Below the pieces are notes generated by a model. The model was not told where the DNA came from and did not search any database. It worked only from the letters and a program-made list of their open reading frames with translations. A program made the position numbers and the translations under genes. Shown here one piece after another: positions 39,042-49,084 of a DNA stretch of 64,000 nt. Each line of letters opens with the position of its first letter. The stretch's first letter is position 1. Origin of the DNA: Epilithonimonas xixisoli (GTDB lineage: Bacteria; Bacteroidota; Bacteroidia; Flavobacteriales; Weeksellaceae); assembly GCF_004365655.1 (NCBI RefSeq), contig NZ_SOEO01000001.1:620001-684000 (forward strand). Reading direction: 5' to 3'.

Positions 39042-39068
39042 AAATGGCCGGAACTTTTCCGACCATTC
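39042..39068 (-). terminator. Terminator of the RND efflux operon
   Basis: On the minus strand AATGGTCGGAA pairs with TTCCGGCCATT (one G-U) around a 3-nt loop, then TTT. It is 47 bp past the stop of the outer-membrane factor gene. Confidence 0.75.
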
Positions 39069-39114
39069 TTGTTACCCGAAAGTAACTTTTAACAAAAAAT
39101 AACTTAAACTTTAT

Positions 39115-40536
39115 TTATTTCCATCCGCCTCCAAGAGCTCTGTAAAGATCAACAATACTGCTGAGTCTTTGTCTCTTGATGGAAGCCAGATTCAATTCTG
39201 CTTGGAGTGAATTTGCCTGAGCTGTTATCACTTCCAGGTAATTTGCCATTCCGCCTTTGTAAAGGAGTTCGGCACTTTTGATTCCGTCTTTCAGCGTCGT
39301 CACTTGTTCCGAAGCTTTCACTTCCTGAGCTTTTAAACTTTCATTGGAAACTAATGCGTCAGAAACTTCGCCAACAGCATTCAGAACAGATTGACGGAAA
39401 GCCAAAACATTTTTTTCTCTTTGGATTTTCGCGACATTCAAGTCGGTTTTCAATTGCCTTTTTTGGAAAATCGGTTGCGTGATTCCTCCCAAAACAGAAC
39501 CGAACAACGAAGCCGGAATCTGAAACCAGTTATCAATTTTAAATGAATTCACACCACCATTTGCCGTGATTTTCAACGCTGGATACATACTTGCCTGCGC
39601 AATTCCTACCAGAGAATTGGATTCCAACAAAACCAATTCTTGCTGACGAACATCCGGACGACGACTCACCATCGCTGCTGGAATTCCGGTCGAAATATTT
39701 TGTGGTAATGATGAATCGGACATTTCAATCGTTCTGCTGATTCTATCTGGATTTTCACCCACCAAAATACTTAATGCATTTTCCTGAATGGCAATATTTT
39801 GTTCCAGTTGCGTGATCAAAAGTTCAGTTGATTCTGTTCTGGCTTTCGCCTGCTGAACGCCCAAAGAAGTCGTTTCGCCACCTTTCCAGATTTTCTCTGT
39901 GACATCCAAAGTATTTTTGCTGAGTTCCAAGTTAGATTTCGCAACATTCATTTGTTTGTCAAGCATCAGCAAATTGTAATAGCCTTGCGCAATCGCTGCG
40001 ACAACTTGAGTTTGGATTGCTTTTGAAGCTTCGTAAGTTTGCAGATATTGAACTCTGGAAACTTCCTGCTGCTTTTTAATCTTTCCCCAAATGTCAGCTT
40101 CCCAACTTAAATTGAAAGCCGCATTATAATCTTCAACGTGGCTTTGTCCTAAAAATAAGTTAAGACTTTGCCCATTCATACTATTTTTGGAAGGCTTCGA
40201 GATTTGTCCCGAAACGCCAAAAGTGATGTCCGGATATTGCAGATATTTTGCCTGAAGTAATCGTTCCTGTGAAGAAGCCACTTGTTTCAAAGCGATTTGC
40301 AAATCGTAATTATTTTTGATTCCTTTCTCGATCAAGTTTTGCAAGATCGGATCTTTAAAGAATTGCCTCCATTCCAAATCTGCAACGCTTGCTGTGTCCG
40401 CTGTAGCCGTATATTGAAACTGTTCTGGCACATCGGGTTTTACTTTTTCTAAAGCTAATTTTGGCATACAGGAAACTGCACCTCCTGCGACGATGATGGC
40501 CACCAAAATATCTTTTATCTTATTTATTGTGTTCAT
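39115..40536 (-). CDS. RND efflux outer-membrane factor (TolC/NodT family lipoprotein)
   Basis: 473 residues. A lipoprotein signal (lipobox GAVSC, Cys23) is followed by two long helical hairpins and short strand pairs characteristic of trimeric outer-membrane factors (TAEVASLE-type WRQFFKDPILQNLIEKG, then NLSWEADIWGKIKKQQEVSR and RRPDVRQQELVLLESNSLVGIAQ). It provides the outer-membrane channel for the pump and adaptor encoded upstream. It is the last gene of the operon; 166 bp containing repeat element A separate it from the pump gene. Confidence 0.94.
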   Translation of the reverse strand: MNTINKIKDILVAIIVAGGAVSCMPKLALEKVKPDVPEQFQYTATADTASVADLEWRQFFKDPILQNLIEKGIKNNYDLQIALKQVASSQERLLQAKYLQYPDITFGVSGQISKPSKNSMNGQSLNLFLGQSHVEDYNAAFNLSWEADIWGKIKKQQEVSRVQYLQTYEASKAIQTQVVAAIAQGYYNLLMLDKQMNVAKSNLELSKNTLDVTEKIWKGGETTSLGVQQAKARTESTELLITQLEQNIAIQENALSILVGENPDRISRTIEMSDSSLPQNISTGIPAAMVSRRPDVRQQELVLLESNSLVGIAQASMYPALKITANGGVNSFKIDNWFQIPASLFGSVLGGITQPIFQKRQLKTDLNVAKIQREKNVLAFRQSVLNAVGEVSDALVSNESLKAQEVKASEQVTTLKDGIKSAELLYKGGMANYLEVITAQANSLQAELNLASIKRQRLSSIVDLYRALGGGWK

Positions 40537-40562
40537 TTATTTTCTTTTATATAATTATTTAG

Positions 40563-40687
40563 AGCATTGTTTTGAACATAGAATCTCACGCAGCCCGACT
40601 TGAACGGAAATCCTTTTTTTGCTTGGGCATTAGCGTTGGCTAAAAAGATTGGGAGTGGAAGGCGGAAAAGCTGCCCAAAACAATGCT
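40563..40687 (+). repeat. Intergenic repeat element A (family R1) with 11-bp terminal inverted repeats
   Basis: Bounded by AGCATTGTTTT (40563-40573) and its exact reverse complement (40677-40687). Inside are CAGCCCGACTTGAACGGA, ATCCTTTTTTT, AAAAAGATT and GGGAGTGGAAGGCGG, then AAGCTGCCC. The same ordered modules recur at 47190-47293 and 53877-54010. It sits between the pump and outer-membrane factor genes and encodes nothing. Confidence 0.8.
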
Positions 40688-40702
40688 ACAAATTTTATCA
40701 GT

Positions 40703-43700
40703 TTAAATATAATTCAAAGCTGCTTTTTCCTTTCTAAGTTTACGTTTCTTTCTACTGGGCATTTTCTCGTGCAGATATTGGAAGATCACGTACATCACCG
40801 GGATGATGAAAATCCCGAAAACTACTCCTGTAAACATCCCACCAACTGTACTGATTCCAATGGAGTGATTTCCTTTTGCAGCCGCACCTTGCGTCCAAAC
40901 CAACGGCAACATCCCAATGATAAAAGCAAATGATGTCATCAAAATTGGTCTTAATCTTAACCTCGAAGCTTGAAGCGCAGATTCAATCAAAGTTTTGCCT
41001 GCTTTTCGTCTTTGAACCGCGAATTCCACAATCAGAATCGCATTTTTCGCAAGCAATCCAACGAGCATAATCAATCCAACCTGAACGTAAATATTATTAT
41101 CGATTCCAGCCAAACCTGTGAAAGCATACACTCCGAAAATACCTGTAGGAATCGTTAAAATAATTGCAAAAGGAAGGATGTAACTTTCGTACTGCGCCGC
41201 CAACAGGAAGTACACGAACAAAATACTTAGAAGGAAAATGAATCCGGTTTGTCCACCCGTTTTGATCTCTTCACGCGTGATTCCTGTCCATTCGTAACCG
41301 TAACCTCTTGGCAATGATTGTTTCGCAGTTTCCTCAACTGCTTTGATCGCATCTCCCGTACTGTAACCAGGTTTCGGCGTTCCATTGATTGTCACGGCGT
41401 TGAAAAGGTTATTTCGAGTCACCGTTTCTGGTCCGAAAGTTCTTTTCAAGGTCACCAAAGTTTTCACTGGAACCATTTCGCTTTGGTTATTTTTTACATA
41501 GATTCCCTCAAGTGAATTGGCGTCGGTTCTGTAAGGAACATCGGCTTGAGCCATCACACGGTAGTATTTTCCAAACCTGTTGAAATCGGAAACGAAACTA
41601 CTTCCGTAATAGATTTGCATCGTTTGCATCAGGTCGGTTACAGAAACACCTAATTGATTGGCTTTATCAGAATCAACTTCAATCGTATATTGAGGATTTC
41701 CTGCGGCATAAGTTGTGAAAGCAAACGCAATCTCCGGACGTTTCATCAATTCGCCAATGAAAGCCTGAGTTGTAGTTCCCAATTGTTCAAAAGAACCGTT
41801 GGTCTTGTCCTGAAGCATAAACTCAAATCCTGAAACGTTACCAAAACCTTGAACAGTAGGGAAGTTGAAGAAGAAGGTACTCGCGTCTTTCACTTGAGAA
41901 ACTTTCCCTGTTAATGCCGCAGCAATCTGATCTGGATCACTCATTGCGCCTCTTTTGTCCTGATCTTTTAGCTTGATAAAACCTGCAGCGTAAGGCGATG
42001 CGTTGGCATTACTGATGAAATTTAAACCGTCTGCTACCCAAAGATGTTTTGTGGATTCTTCTTTGTTGATGATCTTGTCAATTTCTGCAGTGGCTTTGTG
42101 CGTTCTTTCCAATGAACTTCCTGGAGGCGTATTCACAGCGAACAAAACAAAACCTTGATCTTCCGTTGGGATAAATCCTGTAGGCGCTTTATTAATTAAG
42201 AAAATTGTAAACGCCGTTATCAAGACAAGTCCGCCAACACCGACCCATTTATTTTTAATTAAAAATTTAAGACTGTAAATATATTTTCGAGTCATATTAT
42301 TGAAGGCCGCATTGAAAGCGTTGAAAAACCTCGCTCCAAAACCTTTTTTCTGACCGTGCTCGCCGTGTTCACCTTGAGGATTACTTAGTAAAAGAGCACA
42401 TAAAGCTGGACTTAATGTCAATGCATTGACTGCAGAAATTAAAATCGCAATCGCTAATGTAAATGCAAACTGTCTGTAGAAAACTCCTGCTGGACCTTGC
42501 ATAAAGCCAACCGGAACGAAAACCGCTGACATTACCAAAGTGATGGAGATGATTGCTCCCGAAATCTCACTCATCGATTCTCTTGTGGCTTGCTCAACTG
42601 GCAAACCTGTGTGTTCCATCTTGGAATGGACAGCCTCGACAACCACAATCGCATCATCGACGACAATACCAATGGCCAGAACCAACGCAAACAAGGTTAA
42701 CATATTGATACTGAATCCGAATAAATTAAGGAAGAAAAATGTTCCGATAATCGCGACTGGAACCGCAATTGCCGGAATCAAAGTCGATCTAAAATCCTGA
42801 AGGAAAATATAAACCACAATGAAAACAAGTATAAAAGCAATCACCAAAGTTTCCACAACCTGATGGATCGAAGCGTCCAAAAAGTCTTTGGAATTGTACA
42901 TAATGATCGGCTCCACACCTTTAGGAAGCGTTGTTTTCATTTCTTCAACTTGCTTCTCAATCTCCGTAATGATCTCGTTGGAATTGGAACCAGCCGTTTG
43001 TAGAATTGCGAAACCAGCAACTGGTTTTCCATCAACTCTGTTGGATGCGGTGTAGCTGTAAGAACCAAATTCAACTCTTGCTACATCTTTCAATCTCAAA
43101 AATGAACCGTCATTGTTGGATTTGATCACGATGTTTTCGTAATCTGTATTTTGGTTAAGTTTTCCTTTGTATTTTAAAATGTATTCGTAAGTTTCCTTAC
43201 TACCTTGTCCCAATCGTCCAGGCGCCGCTTCAAGATTGCTATTTTTGATGGCAGCAAGAACTTCCTGAGGCGAAAGATTGTTATCAGCTAATCGGTCTGG
43301 TTTCAGCCAAACTCTCATCGAGTAATCTCTGGCGCCGAAAACCTGAGCCTGCGCAACTCCGGGAATACGCTGGATTTGTGGAATGACATTGATTTTCAGA
43401 TAATTCTGTAGGAATAATTCGTCATATTGTTTAGGATCACTACTTGAAAGTCCCATAAACATAATCATACTGTTCTGAACTTTCTGAGTCGAGATCCCAG
43501 CCTGAACAACCTCTTGTGGAAGCTGGCTCATGGCTTTGGAAACTCTGTTTTGAACGTTCACCGCAGCATTATCCGGATCTGAACCTTGTTTGAAAAAGAT
43601 ACTCAAAGTCATCGATCCGTCATTACTGGAATTCGATGTCATGTAAGTCATATTCTCCACACCATTCACAGCTTCCTCGATTGGATTGGCAACAGAACGT

Positions 43701-43873
43701 GCGACAACTTCGGCATTTGCACCAGGATATGATGCAGTTACCTGAACGCTTGGTGGCGCAATGTCGGGGAACAATGTGATCGGCAATTGAAACACCGAAA
43801 GTGCTCCCAATAATAATAAGATGATCGAAATAACCGTTGAGAGTACTGGTCTTTCTATGAATTTTTGTAGCAT
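40703..43873 (-). CDS. RND multidrug efflux pump, inner-membrane permease (HAE1 family)
   Basis: 1056 residues, the normal length for AcrB/MexB proteins. Twelve membrane helices flank two large periplasmic loops. The proton-relay Asp pair is visible in GIVVDDAIVVVEAVHSK, and the first helix reads FIERPVLSTVISIILLLLGA as in HAE1 pumps. The C-terminal end is basic (MPSRKKRKLRKEK). The trimer takes up amphiphilic drugs or detergents from the periplasm and drives them through the outer-membrane factor. It is the middle gene of the adaptor-pump-channel operon, 98 bp after the adaptor gene. Confidence 0.97.
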   Translation of the reverse strand: MLQKFIERPVLSTVISIILLLLGALSVFQLPITLFPDIAPPSVQVTASYPGANAEVVARSVANPIEEAVNGVENMTYMTSNSSNDGSMTLSIFFKQGSDPDNAAVNVQNRVSKAMSQLPQEVVQAGISTQKVQNSMIMFMGLSSSDPKQYDELFLQNYLKINVIPQIQRIPGVAQAQVFGARDYSMRVWLKPDRLADNNLSPQEVLAAIKNSNLEAAPGRLGQGSKETYEYILKYKGKLNQNTDYENIVIKSNNDGSFLRLKDVARVEFGSYSYTASNRVDGKPVAGFAILQTAGSNSNEIITEIEKQVEEMKTTLPKGVEPIIMYNSKDFLDASIHQVVETLVIAFILVFIVVYIFLQDFRSTLIPAIAVPVAIIGTFFFLNLFGFSINMLTLFALVLAIGIVVDDAIVVVEAVHSKMEHTGLPVEQATRESMSEISGAIISITLVMSAVFVPVGFMQGPAGVFYRQFAFTLAIAILISAVNALTLSPALCALLLSNPQGEHGEHGQKKGFGARFFNAFNAAFNNMTRKYIYSLKFLIKNKWVGVGGLVLITAFTIFLINKAPTGFIPTEDQGFVLFAVNTPPGSSLERTHKATAEIDKIINKEESTKHLWVADGLNFISNANASPYAAGFIKLKDQDKRGAMSDPDQIAAALTGKVSQVKDASTFFFNFPTVQGFGNVSGFEFMLQDKTNGSFEQLGTTTQAFIGELMKRPEIAFAFTTYAAGNPQYTIEVDSDKANQLGVSVTDLMQTMQIYYGSSFVSDFNRFGKYYRVMAQADVPYRTDANSLEGIYVKNNQSEMVPVKTLVTLKRTFGPETVTRNNLFNAVTINGTPKPGYSTGDAIKAVEETAKQSLPRGYGYEWTGITREEIKTGGQTGFIFLLSILFVYFLLAAQYESYILPFAIILTIPTGIFGVYAFTGLAGIDNNIYVQVGLIMLVGLLAKNAILIVEFAVQRRKAGKTLIESALQASRLRLRPILMTSFAFIIGMLPLVWTQGAAAKGNHSIGISTVGGMFTGVVFGIFIIPVMYVIFQYLHEKMPSRKKRKLRKEKAALNYI

Positions 43874-43971
43874 AAGAAGTTTAGTTTTTGTTGAGCCGTT
43901 AAACTGTGAATTTGTAAAATCGTTTTTGGATTCAACGATTCAACAGTTTTACAAATCGACAATTTAACGTA

Positions 43972-45132
43972 CTATAAAGGTGTTGCTGTCAATAAGCTGT
44001 CAGAAGAGATCATTTTTGGTTTGATGGATACGCCATCTTTTAAGCTACCCAAACCAGTGAAGACAATCTGATCGCCTTTTTTAAGTCCTTCGGAAATGAA
44101 GTAATAATTGTCAGTTTTTCCAGAAATTGTGATTGGTTTACTGGTTACTTTTTTGTCTTTTCCAAGAACGTAAACGTAAGTTTTATCTTGAATTTCAAAT
44201 GTTGATTCTTGCGGAATGACAACTGCATCTGATAATAATTGAGGCATTCTCACTTTTCCGGTGTTTCCACTTCTCAAAGTTCCGTTAGGATTTGGGAAAG
44301 TCGCACGAACTGTGATGGCACCAGTACTTTTATCAAATTGACCATCAATCATTTTCATTTTTCCTTTTTCAGAATAGGTCGTGTTATCAGCAATAACCAA
44401 ATCCACCAAAGGCATATTTCTCATTTTTTCTTCCAGCGTTGCGCCAACATATTTCTTTTGAAATGCAATAAAATCGATTTCACTGATGGAAAAGTAGGCA
44501 TAAATCTCGCTAATATCAGATACGAAAGCCAGTGGAGTAGCATCAGTTCTGGAAATCAGGCTTCCTTTTTTGTAAGGAATTCTACCAAGATATCCGCTGA
44601 CAGGCGCTGTAATAGTGGTAAAACCATTAGTAATTCTGGAACCGCTCAAAGATGCTTTTGCCTGAGCTGCTGTCGCCACTGCTACTGCGTAATTGGCTTT
44701 AGCCGTTTTTAGCTGAACGTCAGAAACTACTTTTTCAGCAACCAAGGTTGTGAGTCTGTCAACTTCAACTTTCATTTTTTGAATGTTGGCGTTTGCCGCT
44801 TGCAAATTCGCGCTTGCCATATTGACTTGTTCGCCGTAAGATCTGGAATCGATTTTGAACAAAGGCTGTCCCGCTCTTACGAAAGCACCTTCCTCAACAA
44901 ATATTTTATCAAGATATCCATCGACTTGAGATCTGATTTCGACATTGTTTTTTCCTTCCAAAGCGGTTGGGAATTCCTGAAAAGTTGAAGTGTTGGAAGT
45001 AATCACCGTATAAACAGGCAATTCCGGAGCTGGTGGTAATGCGCCTGCACCTTCAGCTGCTTTTGTGCAGTTTTGTAAAAGTATGATACCCGATAGAAGT
45101 ATGATAAATTTTATTTTTGTAATAGTTTTCAT
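43972..45132 (-). CDS. RND efflux periplasmic adaptor lipoprotein
   Basis: 386 residues from the ATG at 45130-45132, which gives a lipoprotein signal (MKTITKIKFIILLSGIILLQNC); the first in-frame ATG at 45231 would add 33 residues and lie beside operator-like site 1, so it is unlikely. The mature protein has the lipoyl-like half motifs (VEIRSQVDGYLDKIFVEEG, TITAPVSGYLGRIPYKKG), a helical hairpin between them (about 95-150), and the beta-barrel and membrane-proximal domains (IPQESTFEIQDKTYVYVLG). It links pump and outer-membrane channel. It is the first gene of the efflux operon; three TetR-type palindromes lie upstream. Confidence 0.94.
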   Translation of the reverse strand: MKTITKIKFIILLSGIILLQNCTKAAEGAGALPPAPELPVYTVITSNTSTFQEFPTALEGKNNVEIRSQVDGYLDKIFVEEGAFVRAGQPLFKIDSRSYGEQVNMASANLQAANANIQKMKVEVDRLTTLVAEKVVSDVQLKTAKANYAVAVATAAQAKASLSGSRITNGFTTITAPVSGYLGRIPYKKGSLISRTDATPLAFVSDISEIYAYFSISEIDFIAFQKKYVGATLEEKMRNMPLVDLVIADNTTYSEKGKMKMIDGQFDKSTGAITVRATFPNPNGTLRSGNTGKVRMPQLLSDAVVIPQESTFEIQDKTYVYVLGKDKKVTSKPITISGKTDNYYFISEGLKKGDQIVFTGLGSLKDGVSIKPKMISSDSLLTATPL

Positions 45133-45193
45133 TTTGGAGTTTGAATTATAGATTAAGTTAGATATGTTCTTAATAGTTTTGTAGTTATTTTTC

Positions 45194-45206
45194 CTAACAG
45201 TGTTAA
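45194..45206. promoter_or_regulatory. TetR operator-like palindrome, site 1
   Basis: CTAACAGTGTTAA, 62 bp upstream of the adaptor start. It matches the perfect palindrome at 46040-46052 in 11 of 13 positions. Confidence 0.65.
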
Positions 45207-45301
45207 TAGTTTGTTCAAAAAAATATAACATTCGGTGGCGTTTAAATTTTAGTTTCCATAATAGTTTATTTTAATATTGATTTTTGCTTAAGCTTAAAAA
45301 T

Positions 45302-45324
45302 GTTAGTATAACTAACGGTGTTAA
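45302..45324. promoter_or_regulatory. TetR operator-like palindrome, site 2 with an extra inverted half site
   Basis: CTAACGGTGTTAA at 45312-45324, preceded by GTTAGTATAACTAAC (45302-45316), so three half sites are stacked in alternating orientation. Confidence 0.6.
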
Positions 45325-45398
45325 TATTTTGTGAAAGTAGTTTGATTCATTAATGATTAAAACTACAATAGTTCTAGATTAATTTAATGTTAATTTTC

Positions 45399-45411
45399 CT
45401 AACGGTGTTAA
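45399..45411. promoter_or_regulatory. TetR operator-like palindrome, site 3
   Basis: CTAACGGTGTTAA, 20 bp after the tetR stop codon. Identical to site 2 and flanked by the same TTTTC...ATTA context as site 1. Confidence 0.65.
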
Positions 45412-45430
45412 TTATAAAGTCAAAAAAAAA

Positions 45431-46027
45431 TTACAATGATTTTATAAACGCAGAAACAGTTTCGTCCAGCGTCGTTTTGTTCATTGTAGAAGGAATATCT
45501 GCATTTCTCATCATCATAATAGAAATCAATCCATGAACGGCTGAAAACAAAGCGTGAGAAGAGTGGCAGGCATTATCTGGATTTGAACCTTTTTTATTGA
45601 TGATTTCCAATGTGCATTCGTAAAGCATATCTTGAAAGGACGAGAATTCTTCCTTCATCATTCCTTTTCCGCTGCATTGCATCCCAAGTCCAAACATCAA
45701 TTGATAATATTCTTTATTTTTGAAAGCAAATTTCCAGTAAGCATCTACAATTGCTGTAATCTGATCTTCCGGTTCAGAGTGTTTTTTCTGAGCTTTCAGT
45801 AATTCGATGTGTAATTGGTGAAAACCATTTAAAGAAATTTCATACAAAATAGCTTCCTTGTTTTCGAAATAATCATAAACTACCGGTGCGCTATATTCAA
45901 TCGCATCAGCAATCTTGCGGATAGAAAGTGCGGCCCAACCCTCAGTCTTGGCCAAAGTAAAAGCCGCATCCAATATATTGGCGCGTGTAGATTCTTTTTC
46001 TCTTTGACGACGTTCGTGTAAGCCCAT
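45431..46027 (-). CDS. TetR/AcrR-family transcriptional repressor of the efflux operon
   Basis: 198 residues. The N-terminal helix-turn-helix (about 10-60) reads TRANILDAAFTLAKTEGW, LSIRKIADAIEYSAPVVYDYF, the standard TetR form. The C-terminal ligand domain (about 75-198) is helical and belongs to the WHG/TetR_C type, with several Cys and Met residues that may line the drug pocket. It is encoded directly upstream of the RND operon in the same direction. Four copies of CTAAC-N3-GTTAR, one overlapping its own transcript start and three before the adaptor gene, strongly suggest it represses itself and the pump. The inducer is unknown. Confidence 0.94.
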   Translation of the reverse strand: MGLHERRQREKESTRANILDAAFTLAKTEGWAALSIRKIADAIEYSAPVVYDYFENKEAILYEISLNGFHQLHIELLKAQKKHSEPEDQITAIVDAYWKFAFKNKEYYQLMFGLGMQCSGKGMMKEEFSSFQDMLYECTLEIINKKGSNPDNACHSSHALFSAVHGLISIMMMRNADIPSTMNKTTLDETVSAFIKSL

Positions 46028-46039
46028 TATTTTATTTTT

Positions 46040-46052
46040 CTAACAGCGTTAG
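46040..46052. promoter_or_regulatory. TetR operator-like palindrome, site 4 (perfect)
   Basis: CTAACAGCGTTAG is a perfect palindrome. On the minus strand it begins directly after the TAGTTTTG -7 box of tetR, so bound repressor would cover the transcription start. Confidence 0.75.
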
Positions 46053-46085
46053 CAAAACTACAACTAAAATTTATTAAGTACCAAA
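46053..46085 (-). promoter_or_regulatory. Promoter of tetR
   Basis: On the minus strand TTTG (46082-46085), a spacer of 21 bp, then TAGTTTTG (46053-46060). Both boxes and spacing match the Bacteroidota consensus; the operator follows with no gap. Confidence 0.75.
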
Positions 46086-46183
46086 TAATTTGACAGTTAT
46101 TTGATTGCAAATCATAATCGTTTTCAGAAAAACGTTTATTAATAGTAAAAATGAGATTTAAATTTATCATTAATTTAATACAG

Positions 46184-46214
46184 AAAAAAGGATGAACCAT
46201 TTGATTCATCCTTT
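46184..46214 (-). terminator. Terminator of the haloperoxidase-like hydrolase gene
   Basis: On the minus strand AAAGGATGAA pairs with TTCATCCTTT around a 9-nt loop and is followed by T residues, 22 bp past the stop codon. Confidence 0.85.
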
Positions 46215-46235
46215 AATTTTATACTAAAATATTTA

Positions 46236-47057
46236 TTAAGCCTCAATAAACGCCAAAAGATCTCGATTGATTGTTTCGTCTTCCGTAGTCGGCATTCCGT
46301 GAGGGAAACCTGGATAGGTAATCATTTTACCGTTTTTCAACAATTTAATTGATTTCAACGCTGCGTTTGCAATTGGCACAATTTGGTCATCTTCACCGTG
46401 AAGTACCAAAACCGGAATATCCACCGCCTTCAAATCTTCTGTCAAATCAGTCTCAGAAAATGCTTTGATGCCGTCATAGTGCGCTACGATGCCACCCATC
46501 AAACCTTGTCTCCACCAGTTTCTCTGTACGCCTTCTTTCACGTCTGCACCTTCTCTGTTGTAGCCGTAGAAAGGGAAAGTCAAATCAAAATAAAATTGGT
46601 TTCTGTTGTTCAAAGTCTGCTCTCTGATGCCATCAAAAACTGACATCGGAACGCCATCCGGATTCGTCTCACTTTGCACCATCACTGGCGGAATAGCACT
46701 TATCAACACTGCTTTTTTTGCTCTTCCGTTCGCATATTTATTCACATAACGGATCACTTCGCCACCACCTGTTGAGTGACCAATGTGGATAACGTCCGTC
46801 AATCCAAGGAAATCTACCAATTCCGCTGCATCAGAAGCATATTGCTCAATCGTGTGATTATAAATATCCTGACTAGAACGGCCGTGACCTCTTCTGTCGT
46901 GCGTCACCACTCTGTAACCTCTTTGCAAGAAGAAAATAACCTGTGCATCCCAATCGTCTGATGACAATGGCCATCCGTGGTGAAACATCAAAGTTGGTCC
47001 CTCGCCTTGGTCTTTGTAAAAAATCTCTGTTCCGTCTTTTAATTTTAGTGTGCTCAT
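46236..47057 (-). CDS. Alpha/beta hydrolase, non-heme haloperoxidase type
   Basis: 273 residues, complete. The catalytic triad is Ser95 in GHSTGGGE, Asp224 in GEDDQIVP and His253 in FPHGMPT; the oxyanion segment is HHGWPLSSDDW (about 26-36). This is the layout of cofactor-free chloroperoxidases such as those of Streptomyces and Pseudomonas, whose peroxidation needs acetate and may be a side activity of an esterase. No signal peptide. It is a single gene with a TACATTTG -7 element at 47115-47122 and its own terminator. A paralogue lies at the left edge of the window. Confidence 0.93.
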   Translation of the reverse strand: MSTLKLKDGTEIFYKDQGEGPTLMFHHGWPLSSDDWDAQVIFFLQRGYRVVTHDRRGHGRSSQDIYNHTIEQYASDAAELVDFLGLTDVIHIGHSTGGGEVIRYVNKYANGRAKKAVLISAIPPVMVQSETNPDGVPMSVFDGIREQTLNNRNQFYFDLTFPFYGYNREGADVKEGVQRNWWRQGLMGGIVAHYDGIKAFSETDLTEDLKAVDIPVLVLHGEDDQIVPIANAALKSIKLLKNGKMITYPGFPHGMPTTEDETINRDLLAFIEA

Positions 47058-47114
47058 AATTTAATTTTTAATGTCATTAATTTATTGTAATATTTTGTTG
47101 TCTTAATTCTTTAG

Positions 47115-47122
47115 CAAATGTA
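47115..47122 (-). promoter_or_regulatory. -7 element for the haloperoxidase-like gene
   Basis: TACATTTG on the minus strand is an exact TAnnTTTG match, leaving a leader of about 55 nt. Confidence 0.45.
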
Positions 47123-47189
47123 AGGATGGTTCAATTCGATTCTCGTTAATCTAGTTTAATATCGTACATTATTTATAATTTTATTTTTT

Positions 47190-47293
47190 GGGCAGCTTTA
47201 TCCGCCTACCACTCCCGCTATTTTTTCCCGAGCTAAATCCTCCTGCAAAAAAAATGAGCTCCGTTCAAGTCGGGCTGCAGATTCAGTGTAAAA
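47190..47293 (-). repeat. Intergenic repeat element B (family R1)
   Basis: On the minus strand: GTTTTACACTGAATCTGCAG, CCCGACTTGAACGGAGCTC, a T-rich run, a variable middle, AGCGGGAGTGGTAGGCGG, ATAAAGCTGCCC. It shares the outer 38 bases with element C almost exactly. It lies in the 337-bp gap between the haloperoxidase-like gene and the DsbA-like gene; the rest of that gap holds only the upstream -7 element and AT-rich spacer. Confidence 0.8.
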
Positions 47294-47394
47294 CAAGGTT
47301 CAACCTCAAAAAAAAACTTATGTGTTCTTATATACGCTATAAAAGAAACTTAAAAATAATTGAGTGTCAAAAATCTTTTGTGCCTTTTGTGGTT

Positions 47395-47913
47395 TCAATT
47401 CCCAGTATTCTCCCTCAAAAGCTCAAACAAATCTTTCGCGCCACCATCAAATTTTTTCCCATTCACGAAGAAAGAAGGCGTTCCATTCACGCCGCTCATA
47501 ATCCCACTTTCAAAATCTGAATCCACTTTTTCTGCCAACTCAGTACTTTCCAAATCCTTTTCAAACTGAGGAATGTTCAGTTTTAATTGTTCCGCCAACT
47601 TCATCAGTAAATTTTCATTCAAATCTCTCTGATTTTCATAAATCGCATCGTGCATTTCCCAGAATTTCCCTTGAAGATTGGCCGCTTCTGCTGCGATGGC
47701 CGCTGGCCTTGCATATTGGTGCATTTCAGACAATGGAAAGTTTCTGAAAACAAATTTGATTTGACTTCCAAATTCTTTCATCAATTCTTTCAGAACCGGA
47801 TAAGCAGCGCCACAATAAGGACATTGATAATCTCCGTATTCTACAATCACAAGGTCGGCTTCTAAGTTGCCTTGCGCGTGGTCAGCTTGGCTGATGTTTG
47901 GTTTTAGTGACAT
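47395..47913 (-). CDS. DsbA-family thioredoxin-fold oxidoreductase (cytoplasmic)
   Basis: 172 residues. A thioredoxin fold with the redox motif CPYC (Cys31, Cys34) after EYGDYQ, the inserted helical domain, and the cis-proline loop GTPSFFVNG near residue 152. The order is that of the Thioredoxin_4/DsbG-like family. There is no signal peptide or membrane segment, so it acts in the cytoplasm, perhaps as a reductase for a peroxiredoxin or a detoxification enzyme. It is the last gene of a four-gene unit, 3 bp after the peroxiredoxin gene. Confidence 0.92.
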   Translation of the reverse strand: MSLKPNISQADHAQGNLEADLVIVEYGDYQCPYCGAAYPVLKELMKEFGSQIKFVFRNFPLSEMHQYARPAAIAAEAANLQGKFWEMHDAIYENQRDLNENLLMKLAEQLKLNIPQFEKDLESTELAEKVDSDFESGIMSGVNGTPSFFVNGKKFDGGAKDLFELLRENTGN

Positions 47914-47916
47914 AAT

Positions 47917-48378
47917 TTATTTTGTGTTAAGGTTTTCTAAAGCGTCTAAAATTCCGTCTGCGCCGGGATTGATGGCGGTTGGTGACAGATAACTCCATTC
48001 TATGATTCCGTTTTTGTTGATGACGAAAAGTGCACGTTTACATTCACCTTCTTCATCGTCATAAACACCATATTGTTTTGCGATTTCGCCTTTAGCTTCA
48101 AAATCTGCCAACAAAGGAAAATGTAAATTTCGTGATTGCGAAAATGCCAGATGACACCATTTGCTGTCCACAGAAATTCCGAAAATCTCTGCATCGTATT
48201 TCTTGAAAAACTTCAAAGTTTCATTGTACAAAGCCATCTGGTCGCTGCAAACCGGACTCCAGTCTGCTGGATAAAAGGCAAGTATGACATTCTTTCCTTT
48301 GAATTCTGATAATGTAATTTTCTGGTCTGGCGTTGCGTACAAAGTGAAATCTGGAGCAACATCGTTTTTCTGTAACAT
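47917..48378 (-). CDS. Peroxiredoxin (AhpC/TSA family)
   Basis: 153 residues, cytoplasmic. The active site reads FYPADWSPVCSDQM with peroxidatic Cys44; the usual Pro-X3-Thr-X2-Cys motif has Ser in place of Thr. A second Cys75 in DSKWCHLAF could act in resolution, as could the late Cys in DEEGECKR. Residue pattern and size suggest the AhpE/1-Cys-like group. It reduces hydroperoxides using thiols. It lies 4 bp after the DUF1275 gene and 3 bp before the DsbA-like gene, which may recycle it. Confidence 0.92.
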   Translation of the reverse strand: MLQKNDVAPDFTLYATPDQKITLSEFKGKNVILAFYPADWSPVCSDQMALYNETLKFFKKYDAEIFGISVDSKWCHLAFSQSRNLHFPLLADFEAKGEIAKQYGVYDDEEGECKRALFVINKNGIIEWSYLSPTAINPGADGILDALENLNTK

Positions 48379-48382
48379 AATA

Positions 48383-49084
48383 TTAGTTTTTAGCGTTAAT
48401 TTTTGAAATCAATATGCCGCAAATCATCAGTAATAATCCTGGAATCATCAAAGTCCATTTTCCAAAATAACCGAGTAGGAAGGGAGCGATAAATGCACCG
48501 GATAAAAAACCAATCCACAAAAGCAAAAGATGAATGGCGTTGGATTGATATTCCTTTTTTTCTGCTTTATCTTTGGTCATCGTCAGCATTGCGGTGTTTC
48601 TTGCCAAGCTGTTCAGAGTTCCTGTCACGAAATCTGTATTCACTTTTTGCTTTCCTACTGAAGTCACAATCGTGTTCATTATTCCCATTGAAAATCCGAC
48701 GATTCCGATGGATAATAGAGTATTGATATTTAAGAAATAAGCAAGGATGGTGTATAAAATCAGAATTCCGGAAACCAAATAAAATATCAGTGTTTGGTTC
48801 TTTATTCTCTTTGATAATGACAAACACGTTCCTGTATAAATTCCAACTAAAAAACAACTTAGAACGGTGACTGACGTTATGACAATTCCAAAGTTGTCCG
48901 TTGAAAGTGACGCTCCCAGTGAAGTGGTATTTCCACTCATAAAAGAGACATAGGTTTTCCATTTTATCAAACCTGTTGCATCAATATATCCTGCAATCAA
49001 AGCTAATAATATCGCCAATCTCTCTTGCATCTTAATCGAATCAGATGAAGCGGAAGGGCTTGTTTTGATGACAGAATTATCCAT
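48383..49084 (-). CDS. DUF1275 (YoaK-type) membrane protein
   Basis: 233 residues. Six membrane segments are predicted from about residue 22. The N-terminal AGYIDATGLIKWKTYVSFMSG followed by NTTSLG, and the central TGTLNSLA stretch, are the two conserved motifs of DUF1275. The family is widespread and of unknown function, perhaps a transporter. A polar N-terminal extension of about 20 residues precedes the first helix. It is the second gene of the bicupin-peroxiredoxin unit, 25 bp after the bicupin gene. Confidence 0.9.
   Translation of the reverse strand: MDNSVIKTSPSASSDSIKMQERLAILLALIAGYIDATGLIKWKTYVSFMSGNTTSLGASLSTDNFGIVITSVTVLSCFLVGIYTGTCLSLSKRIKNQTLIFYLVSGILILYTILAYFLNINTLLSIGIVGFSMGIMNTIVTSVGKQKVNTDFVTGTLNSLARNTAMLTMTKDKAEKKEYQSNAIHLLLLWIGFLSGAFIAPFLLGYFGKWTLMIPGLLLMICGILISKINAKN

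Follow-up and report, generated by a model that had tools for sequence, protein, structure and literature searches.

The closest system described so far is BmeR5-bmeABC5 of Bacteroides fragilis, in which a TetR regulator next to an RND pump is proposed to repress that pump by binding between the regulator gene and the pump genes (PMC4790292); that a TetR can repress an RND pump encoded beside it is already known. For DNA recognition within the family, Tn10 TetR provides an example, as the exchanges V36F, E37A, and P39K shift its specificity to tetO-4C5G (PMC6515661). Bound regulators can also act after initiation: LacI, CcpA, and CodY inside a transcription unit form roadblocks that halt elongating RNA polymerase (PMC10310618, PMC4132739), and at the RNA polymerase I terminator (Reb1/Nsi1) a T-rich stretch in which the polymerase pauses lies 15 bp ahead of the site of the roadblock protein, termination also requiring an upstream RNA hairpin (PMC12366685). 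The locus considered here is like BmeR5-bmeABC5 in that a TetR regulator adjoins an RND pump, and unlike it in that the available part of that account describes no operator array and does not give the operator sequence (PMC4790292). A literature search, with subscription journals largely outside its reach, returned nothing on an operator of this subfamily, an 18-bp offset, a residue-base link, or a T-tract-operator array, and the accessible part of PMC10994844 likewise holds nothing on operator or array.

The window, i.e., the whole 64,000-nucleotide stretch of Epilithonimonas xixisoli DNA that was analysed, contains four consecutive genes of this locus on the minus strand. The first, tetR (45431..46027), encodes 198 aa with TetR_N and TetR_C_33 domains above the curated Pfam cut-offs (46.5 bits vs. 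24 for the TetR_N helix-turn-helix). None of the 17 models listed for named TetR equivalogs in NCBIfam (AcrR, TetR, BetI, and others) was above cut-off (AcrR, for example, with 25.7 vs. 271), and no solved structure close to this protein was found (best E 8e-09). It is followed by genes for a periplasmic RND adaptor (386 aa, 43972..45132), an RND permease (1056 aa, 40703..43873, ACR_tran), and an outer-membrane efflux protein (473 aa, 39115..40536, OEP) of the NodT type by profile search. All three subunits exceed the subfamily cut-offs (TIGR01730, TIGR00915, and TIGR01845, respectively) of a HAE1-type tripartite RND efflux system. The adaptor most likely starts at 45132 and not at the first ATG of its reading frame at 45231, because the adaptor frames readable in 77 of 80 relatives have 385-397 aa and a matching start. 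Before tetR, 46236-49084 on the same strand carries alpha/beta hydrolase and DsbA-like thioredoxin genes by profile match, together with peroxiredoxin-like and DUF1275-like genes identified by sequence reading only. DsbA-like genes are also found downstream of tetR at three other loci (L197, L215, and L218).

A sequence-only reading of this DNA had described a 13-bp palindrome, CTAAC-N3-GTTAR, used four times at the locus, and all four copies are where it placed them: the perfect CTAAC-N3-GTTAG of site 1 (class U, 46040..46052) upstream of tetR, and site 2 (D1, 45399..45411), site 3 (D2, 45312..45324), and site 4 (D3, 45194..45206) between tetR and the adaptor gene. In the 64 kb, CTAACNNNGTTAR gives five strand-wise matches at these four places (mean 0.18 and largest 2 in 100 dinucleotide shuffles of the window). 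The 3.39-Mb genome has seven places, and the three outside this locus lie within ORFs of 104, 388, and 494 aa, so that the random genomic scatter which would have spoken against the reading does not occur. The comparison with related species that it proposed was made on 80 near-relative loci kept out of 128 found, which belong to Epilithonimonas and Chryseobacterium apart from a few records listed as unclassified Weeksellaceae or Flavobacteriaceae. The palindrome is kept on both sides of tetR in all 80: CTAAC-N3-GTTAG stands 21-33 nt upstream in every locus, and within 500 nt past the gene there are three copies in 70 loci, four in five, two in four, and one in one, with just three additional matches elsewhere across the whole set. 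In L044, L075, and L096 the four downstream sites stand about 111-135 bp apart, a pattern that would fit the duplication of a unit. Of 23 genomes in the genus, 17 carry this tetR, each with at least two palindrome places at the locus; the six genomes without it have 2, 2, 0, 0, 2, and 3 scattered matches. Related sequences are treated as independent in most of these counts, as in the swap test given below. AAC-N3-GTT is absent from the 150 nt before and the 60 nt after each of the eight other TetR genes of this genome.

Housekeeping promoters of Bacteroidota have the consensus TTTG, about 19-21 nt, and TAnnTTTG, and the region upstream of tetR agrees with this consensus. The -33 box TTTG (46082..46085, minus strand) is separated from the -7 box by exactly 21 nt in 77 of the 80 relatives, and the -7 box TAGTTTTG (46053..46060, minus strand) is TAnnTTTG at this place in all 80. 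The whole TTTG-N21-TAGTTTTG (46053-46085) abuts the start of the perfect palindrome. The earlier claim that this copy begins directly after the -7 box agrees with the comparison, the box abutting the site in all 80 loci. Site 1 lies at the tetR transcription start, where it should block initiation, as the earlier reading also had it.

The operator can be followed well beyond these genera. When ten helix-turn-helix fragments were searched across the phylum, 90 of 394 genomes gave matches. We call close set the 36 places scoring at least 112 bits, from 12 genera and six families (nine of the ten query fragments were taken from members of these 36; the selection was on protein, not on DNA), and distant set 37 of the 66 lower-scoring places. 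In the close set, TAAC-N3-GTTA occurs within 150 nt upstream in 35 of 36 (36 of 36 allowing one mismatch) and inside none of the 36 tetR genes; the operator lies directly behind a -7-like box in 31 of 35 cases, the other four having no box. In the distant set the full pattern is found in 3 of 37 only, and its core AAC-N3-GTT is found within 75 nt upstream in 31 and within 45 nt past the tetR stop in 24 (background, 87 of 7400 mononucleotide-shuffled windows). Among those 31 upstream sites, the operator precedes a -7-like box in seven and follows it in one, and no box is recognised by pattern in 23.

The outer base of the half site tracks residue 48 in the recognition helix. Proline goes with an outer T in 99 of 102 half-site flanks and threonine with T in 8 of 8; with glycine, 76 flanks have G 51 times and A 24 times; with alanine, 36 flanks have A 20 times and G 14 times; and serine goes with C in 2 of 2 flanks of one locus, all these being counts over related sequences that are not independent. 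The three loci with threonine are the same three distant loci that have TAAC-N3-GTTA. Presumably, P48 of this TetR corresponds to P39 of Tn10 TetR. One group of 13 genomes (f3/g35), which we infer to be Flavobacterium, encodes TetR proteins 41-46% identical to this one; all 13 have the same site upstream of tetR after a TACATTTGC- or TACTTTTGC-type box, and one to three exact copies with further imperfect ones behind the gene. In other distant members the upstream site is kept while the next gene varies among RND adaptor, nitroreductase, YceI, DsbA-like, and NmrA-like genes. At L198, L203, L220, and L174 a similar in-frame stretch (IYINS or IYISS ... KLIIM) precedes the adaptor start and may be either an N-terminal extension or a leader peptide. 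These comparisons make it very likely that this TetR has TAAC-RNY-GTTA as its operator.

Copies at a second gene support the operator reading independently of the tetR-pump locus, as far as DNA comparison goes. Exact TAAC-AC[CT]-GTTA stands 120-125 nt upstream of ahpC, identified as AhpC-TSA by profile match, in 13 of the 16 genus genomes with tetR and in none of the five without it, G013 and G015 being left out for want of an ahpC match. The site is absent in the genome of the window, in G009, and in G018; in the genome of the window a one-mismatch hit at ahpC sits elsewhere (-26) and looks like chance. Off-locus places of TAACRNYGTTAG were followed in a chosen part, 16 in ten genus genomes, together with four in the genome of the window (two patterns). 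Nine of the 16 lie in ORFs of 129 to 666 aa and one is intergenic (L169), and the remaining six (L158, L159, L160, L162, L165, and L166) are about 121-125 nt upstream of ahpC and belong to the conserved site. The ahpC upstream regions analysed are the 21 numbered L296-L316, with L298 as the G000 copy. In nearly all 21 a dyad-like GATAGATTTTATAAATC stretch lies past the operator, and we take it to be reminiscent of an oxidative-stress regulator site. The effect of the ahpC site is not obvious, because it lies upstream of this conserved dyad and a -7-like box. Since most genus relatives have the site, the regulon is not in general limited to the tetR-pump locus.

Behind tetR, the repeated unit is larger than the palindrome and consists of a T-tract, 11 nt, the operator, 7 nt, and one half of a further operator at an 18-bp offset. 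In the window, T9 (45422..45430) directly follows the tetR stop codon and ends 11 nt before the TAAC of D1; D2 is without a T-tract; and T7 (45217..45223) ends 11 nt before D3. The second halves lie 18 bp on from D1, D2, and D3 at 45389..45392, 45302..45305, and 45184..45187, respectively (tracts and halves all read on the minus strand). The extra half site that the sequence-only reading had assigned to site 2 is indeed there, but it is not unique, as TAAC follows each of D1, D2, and D3 at a constant distance. Of 156 sites in 51 less redundant regions, 142 repeat AAC at +18, counted from the first AAC (the background averages 0.022 and reaches 0.173 at most), and just three have the far half of the second operator, GTT at +24. 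The top offset of downstream sites is again +18 in both the close (z 4.4) and the distant set (z 4.5); at upstream sites the maximum falls at -18 in the distant set (z 4.4), with no clear maximum in the close set. A complete second operator, with one mismatch or none, stands exactly 18 bp off at L051, L061, L202, L203, L204, L219, L220, and one L198 site.

A T-run ends 11 nt upstream of the operator at D1 in 65 and at D3 in 56 of 69 regions; it is weaker at D2, where 27 of 69 lack a run of at least five T, and it is found at none of 35 upstream (promoter) sites. Beyond the near relatives a T-run stands 9-12 nt before the operator in 17 of 38 exact downstream sites. Of 38 loci that have an exact operator within 45 nt past the tetR stop, 37 also have a tract of T6 or A4T3; the tract is present in 15 of 35 loci without such an operator, 11 of these 15 being f3/g35 loci with a one-mismatch operator there. 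Among 24 distant D1 elements eight have no T6 run, and seven of these eight have A4T3. Within the window, tetR itself is the one gene of 45 with T≥6 within 18 nt past its stop. The T-tract was also considered as a general feature of TetR genes and rejected, since none of 28 TetR genes from other members of the class has such a tract by the same criterion; four of the eight remaining TetR genes in this genome have one, and 0 of 47 control genes (comparison over 37 loci, L286 left out, with genes chosen by position in the locus and not by profile). One of the other TetR genes of this genome (L191) has the same layout with another palindrome, repeated before that gene. More widely, T6-8 past the stop codon and then a different palindrome are seen at L188, L191, and L193, with repeats before the gene in L191 and partly in L193, and L190 has T7 past the stop and no same-strand gene within 500 nt.

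No recognisable promoter was found at the D sites, and pump control through them is for this reason not readable from the sequence. The earlier view of a complete regulon readable from this DNA is not supported on this count, nor on two others, namely the unit exceeding the 13-bp palindrome and the ahpC site of most genus relatives. In 78 tetR-adaptor regions TAnnTTTG is depleted (5 observed vs. 19.2 expected), and TTG-N17-23-TAnnTTTG occurs in none (1.6 expected). Within 110 nt past the tetR stop, TAnnTTTG is found in two loci of the close set (of 36) and two of the distant set (of 37), whereas 31 and 14 loci, respectively, have it upstream of the gene. For many distant members only 22-56 nt separate the operator from the next ATG found, which leaves scant space for a promoter and leader. 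A G+C-containing hairpin before a T-tract, as in an intrinsic terminator, was found at none of D1-D3; the scan of 45050-46350 returned only a terminator-like hairpin, by pattern match, at 46187..46214 between the hydrolase gene and tetR.

The mechanism that we propose is that this TetR locally represses both its own gene and the RND pump genes downstream. The comparison itself bears out the operator, its positions, the 18-bp offset, the T-tract spacing, and the depletion of the canonical box; binding by this protein, readthrough from the tetR promoter, roadblocking, termination, and the inducer are proposed. A dimer on site 1 would cover the transcription start of tetR and block initiation. 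The pump would most likely be read from the tetR promoter, because no canonical promoter of its own is seen, and repressor on the D sites would form a roadblock at which RNA polymerase halts with the T-tract in its RNA-DNA hybrid, so that release would be favoured. A ligand would free all sites together, giving more tetR and readthrough into the pump. Counting for this are the half sites at +18, the T-run spacing that promoter sites do not have, the depletion of TAnnTTTG, and the geometry, which is like that of the polymerase I terminator. Counting against it, D2 often has no T-run, the T-run is found at fewer than half of the exact downstream sites beyond near relatives, A4T3 is a poorer U-tract and equally an A-tract, and some loci fit badly: L229, where an RND adaptor is present and the exact downstream site absent, as well as L190, L188, and L193. 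The polymerase I terminator, moreover, also requires an RNA hairpin (PMC12366685, in the part available), whereas the swap test gives none at D1 and D2 and a hint at D3. We regard autorepression at site 1 with T-tract-assisted roadblocking of readthrough, taken as a whole, as plausible while leaning slightly against its holding in every part. The wider reading, a ligand-gated terminator module with the operator about 11-13 nt behind a T-tract past the repressor's own stop, one to several in series, would make it a bacterial counterpart of the polymerase I terminator with its T-rich stretch and roadblock; it is offered with more hesitation and is rather doubtful. The same hesitation applies to its extension to one promoter serving regulator and pump in several Bacteroidota families and classes, and to L191, an unrelated TetR gene of this genome with its other palindrome.

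The main rival is a repressed cryptic promoter: the D elements may be non-canonical tandem promoters, each with its own operator, in which the T-tract and a G serve as the -33 region and the second-half-operator sequence replaces the -7 box. The G that follows the T-run in near relatives would fit, and the last site, 72-96 nt ahead of the adaptor ATG in the 78 regions, leaves a plausible leader; the distant loci with the operator just ahead of the -7-like box at the tetR promoter offer a parallel, and L188 and L193 have a -7-like box past the palindrome, as a promoter would. Against these stand the rarity of TAnnTTTG past tetR compared with its frequency upstream, and the G, which is not kept in f3/g35. 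We consider tandem promoters a possible explanation that probably fails. It is improbable that the D sites serve to loop the DNA or to titrate the repressor, as auxiliary operators to one weak pump promoter near D3, with A/T-tracts that bend DNA. Sites in series and the A4T3 tracts at some loci would suit such a role, but the spacings are variable (D1-D2 67 to 132; D2-D3 80 to 142, once 253) with no obvious helical phase by inspection, and in the logos the tract always stands upstream of the operator and is T-rich in one of its strands. Still less probable are RNA leader structures: the D3 arms (45184-45223 in the window) do pair better with their own partner than with swapped ones (mean -11.0 vs. 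-9.7 kcal/mol, 0 of 2000 permutations, phylogeny ignored), but D1 and D2 give no such signal, whole-region folds judged by eye show no structure traceable across species, the window region has no Rfam match at E up to 1, and the common part is a DNA-type palindrome that also stands before tetR. Five loci were searched for Rfam families, and one f3/g35 genome has an unrelated Flavo-1 RNA (RF01705) upstream of tetR (L139:1937-2012). That the palindromes arose by chance in AT-rich DNA has base composition alone in its favour and is practically excluded, already by conservation in near and distant relatives and further by the shuffle counts and the ahpC copies.

If the repressor-gated reading is true, regulator-first operons would be controlled after initiation, which would account for the missing pump promoter. 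The T-tract-operator is a recurrent element and a candidate repressor-gated terminator. What the comparison offers for the subfamily is a predicted operator and a residue-to-base link across 12 genera of sampled Bacteroidota. With this operator the targets become legible in sequence, namely pumps, nitroreductase, DsbA-like, YceI, and, in most genus relatives, ahpC genes, a set that suggests redox or electrophile stress as the signal.

With Tn10 TetR and tetO this system shares the family, the helix-turn-helix, and a specificity that is altered by changes including P39 (PMC6515661, accessible part). The operator is a different one, the present locus has an array behind the regulator gene and a second half site offset by 18 bp, and the best NCBIfam TetR score of this protein is far below cut-off. 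The LacI, CcpA, and CodY roadblocks resemble the proposed role of the D sites, roadblocking being the inferred step here; they differ in that release is ascribed mainly to Mfd and the sites contain no T-tract, as far as the available parts of those papers go (PMC10310618, PMC4132739). The RNA polymerase I terminator is eukaryotic, constitutive, and hairpin-dependent, and in these respects unlike the D elements, while in the part of that work available to us its T-rich stretch before a roadblock has a geometry similar to theirs (PMC12366685).
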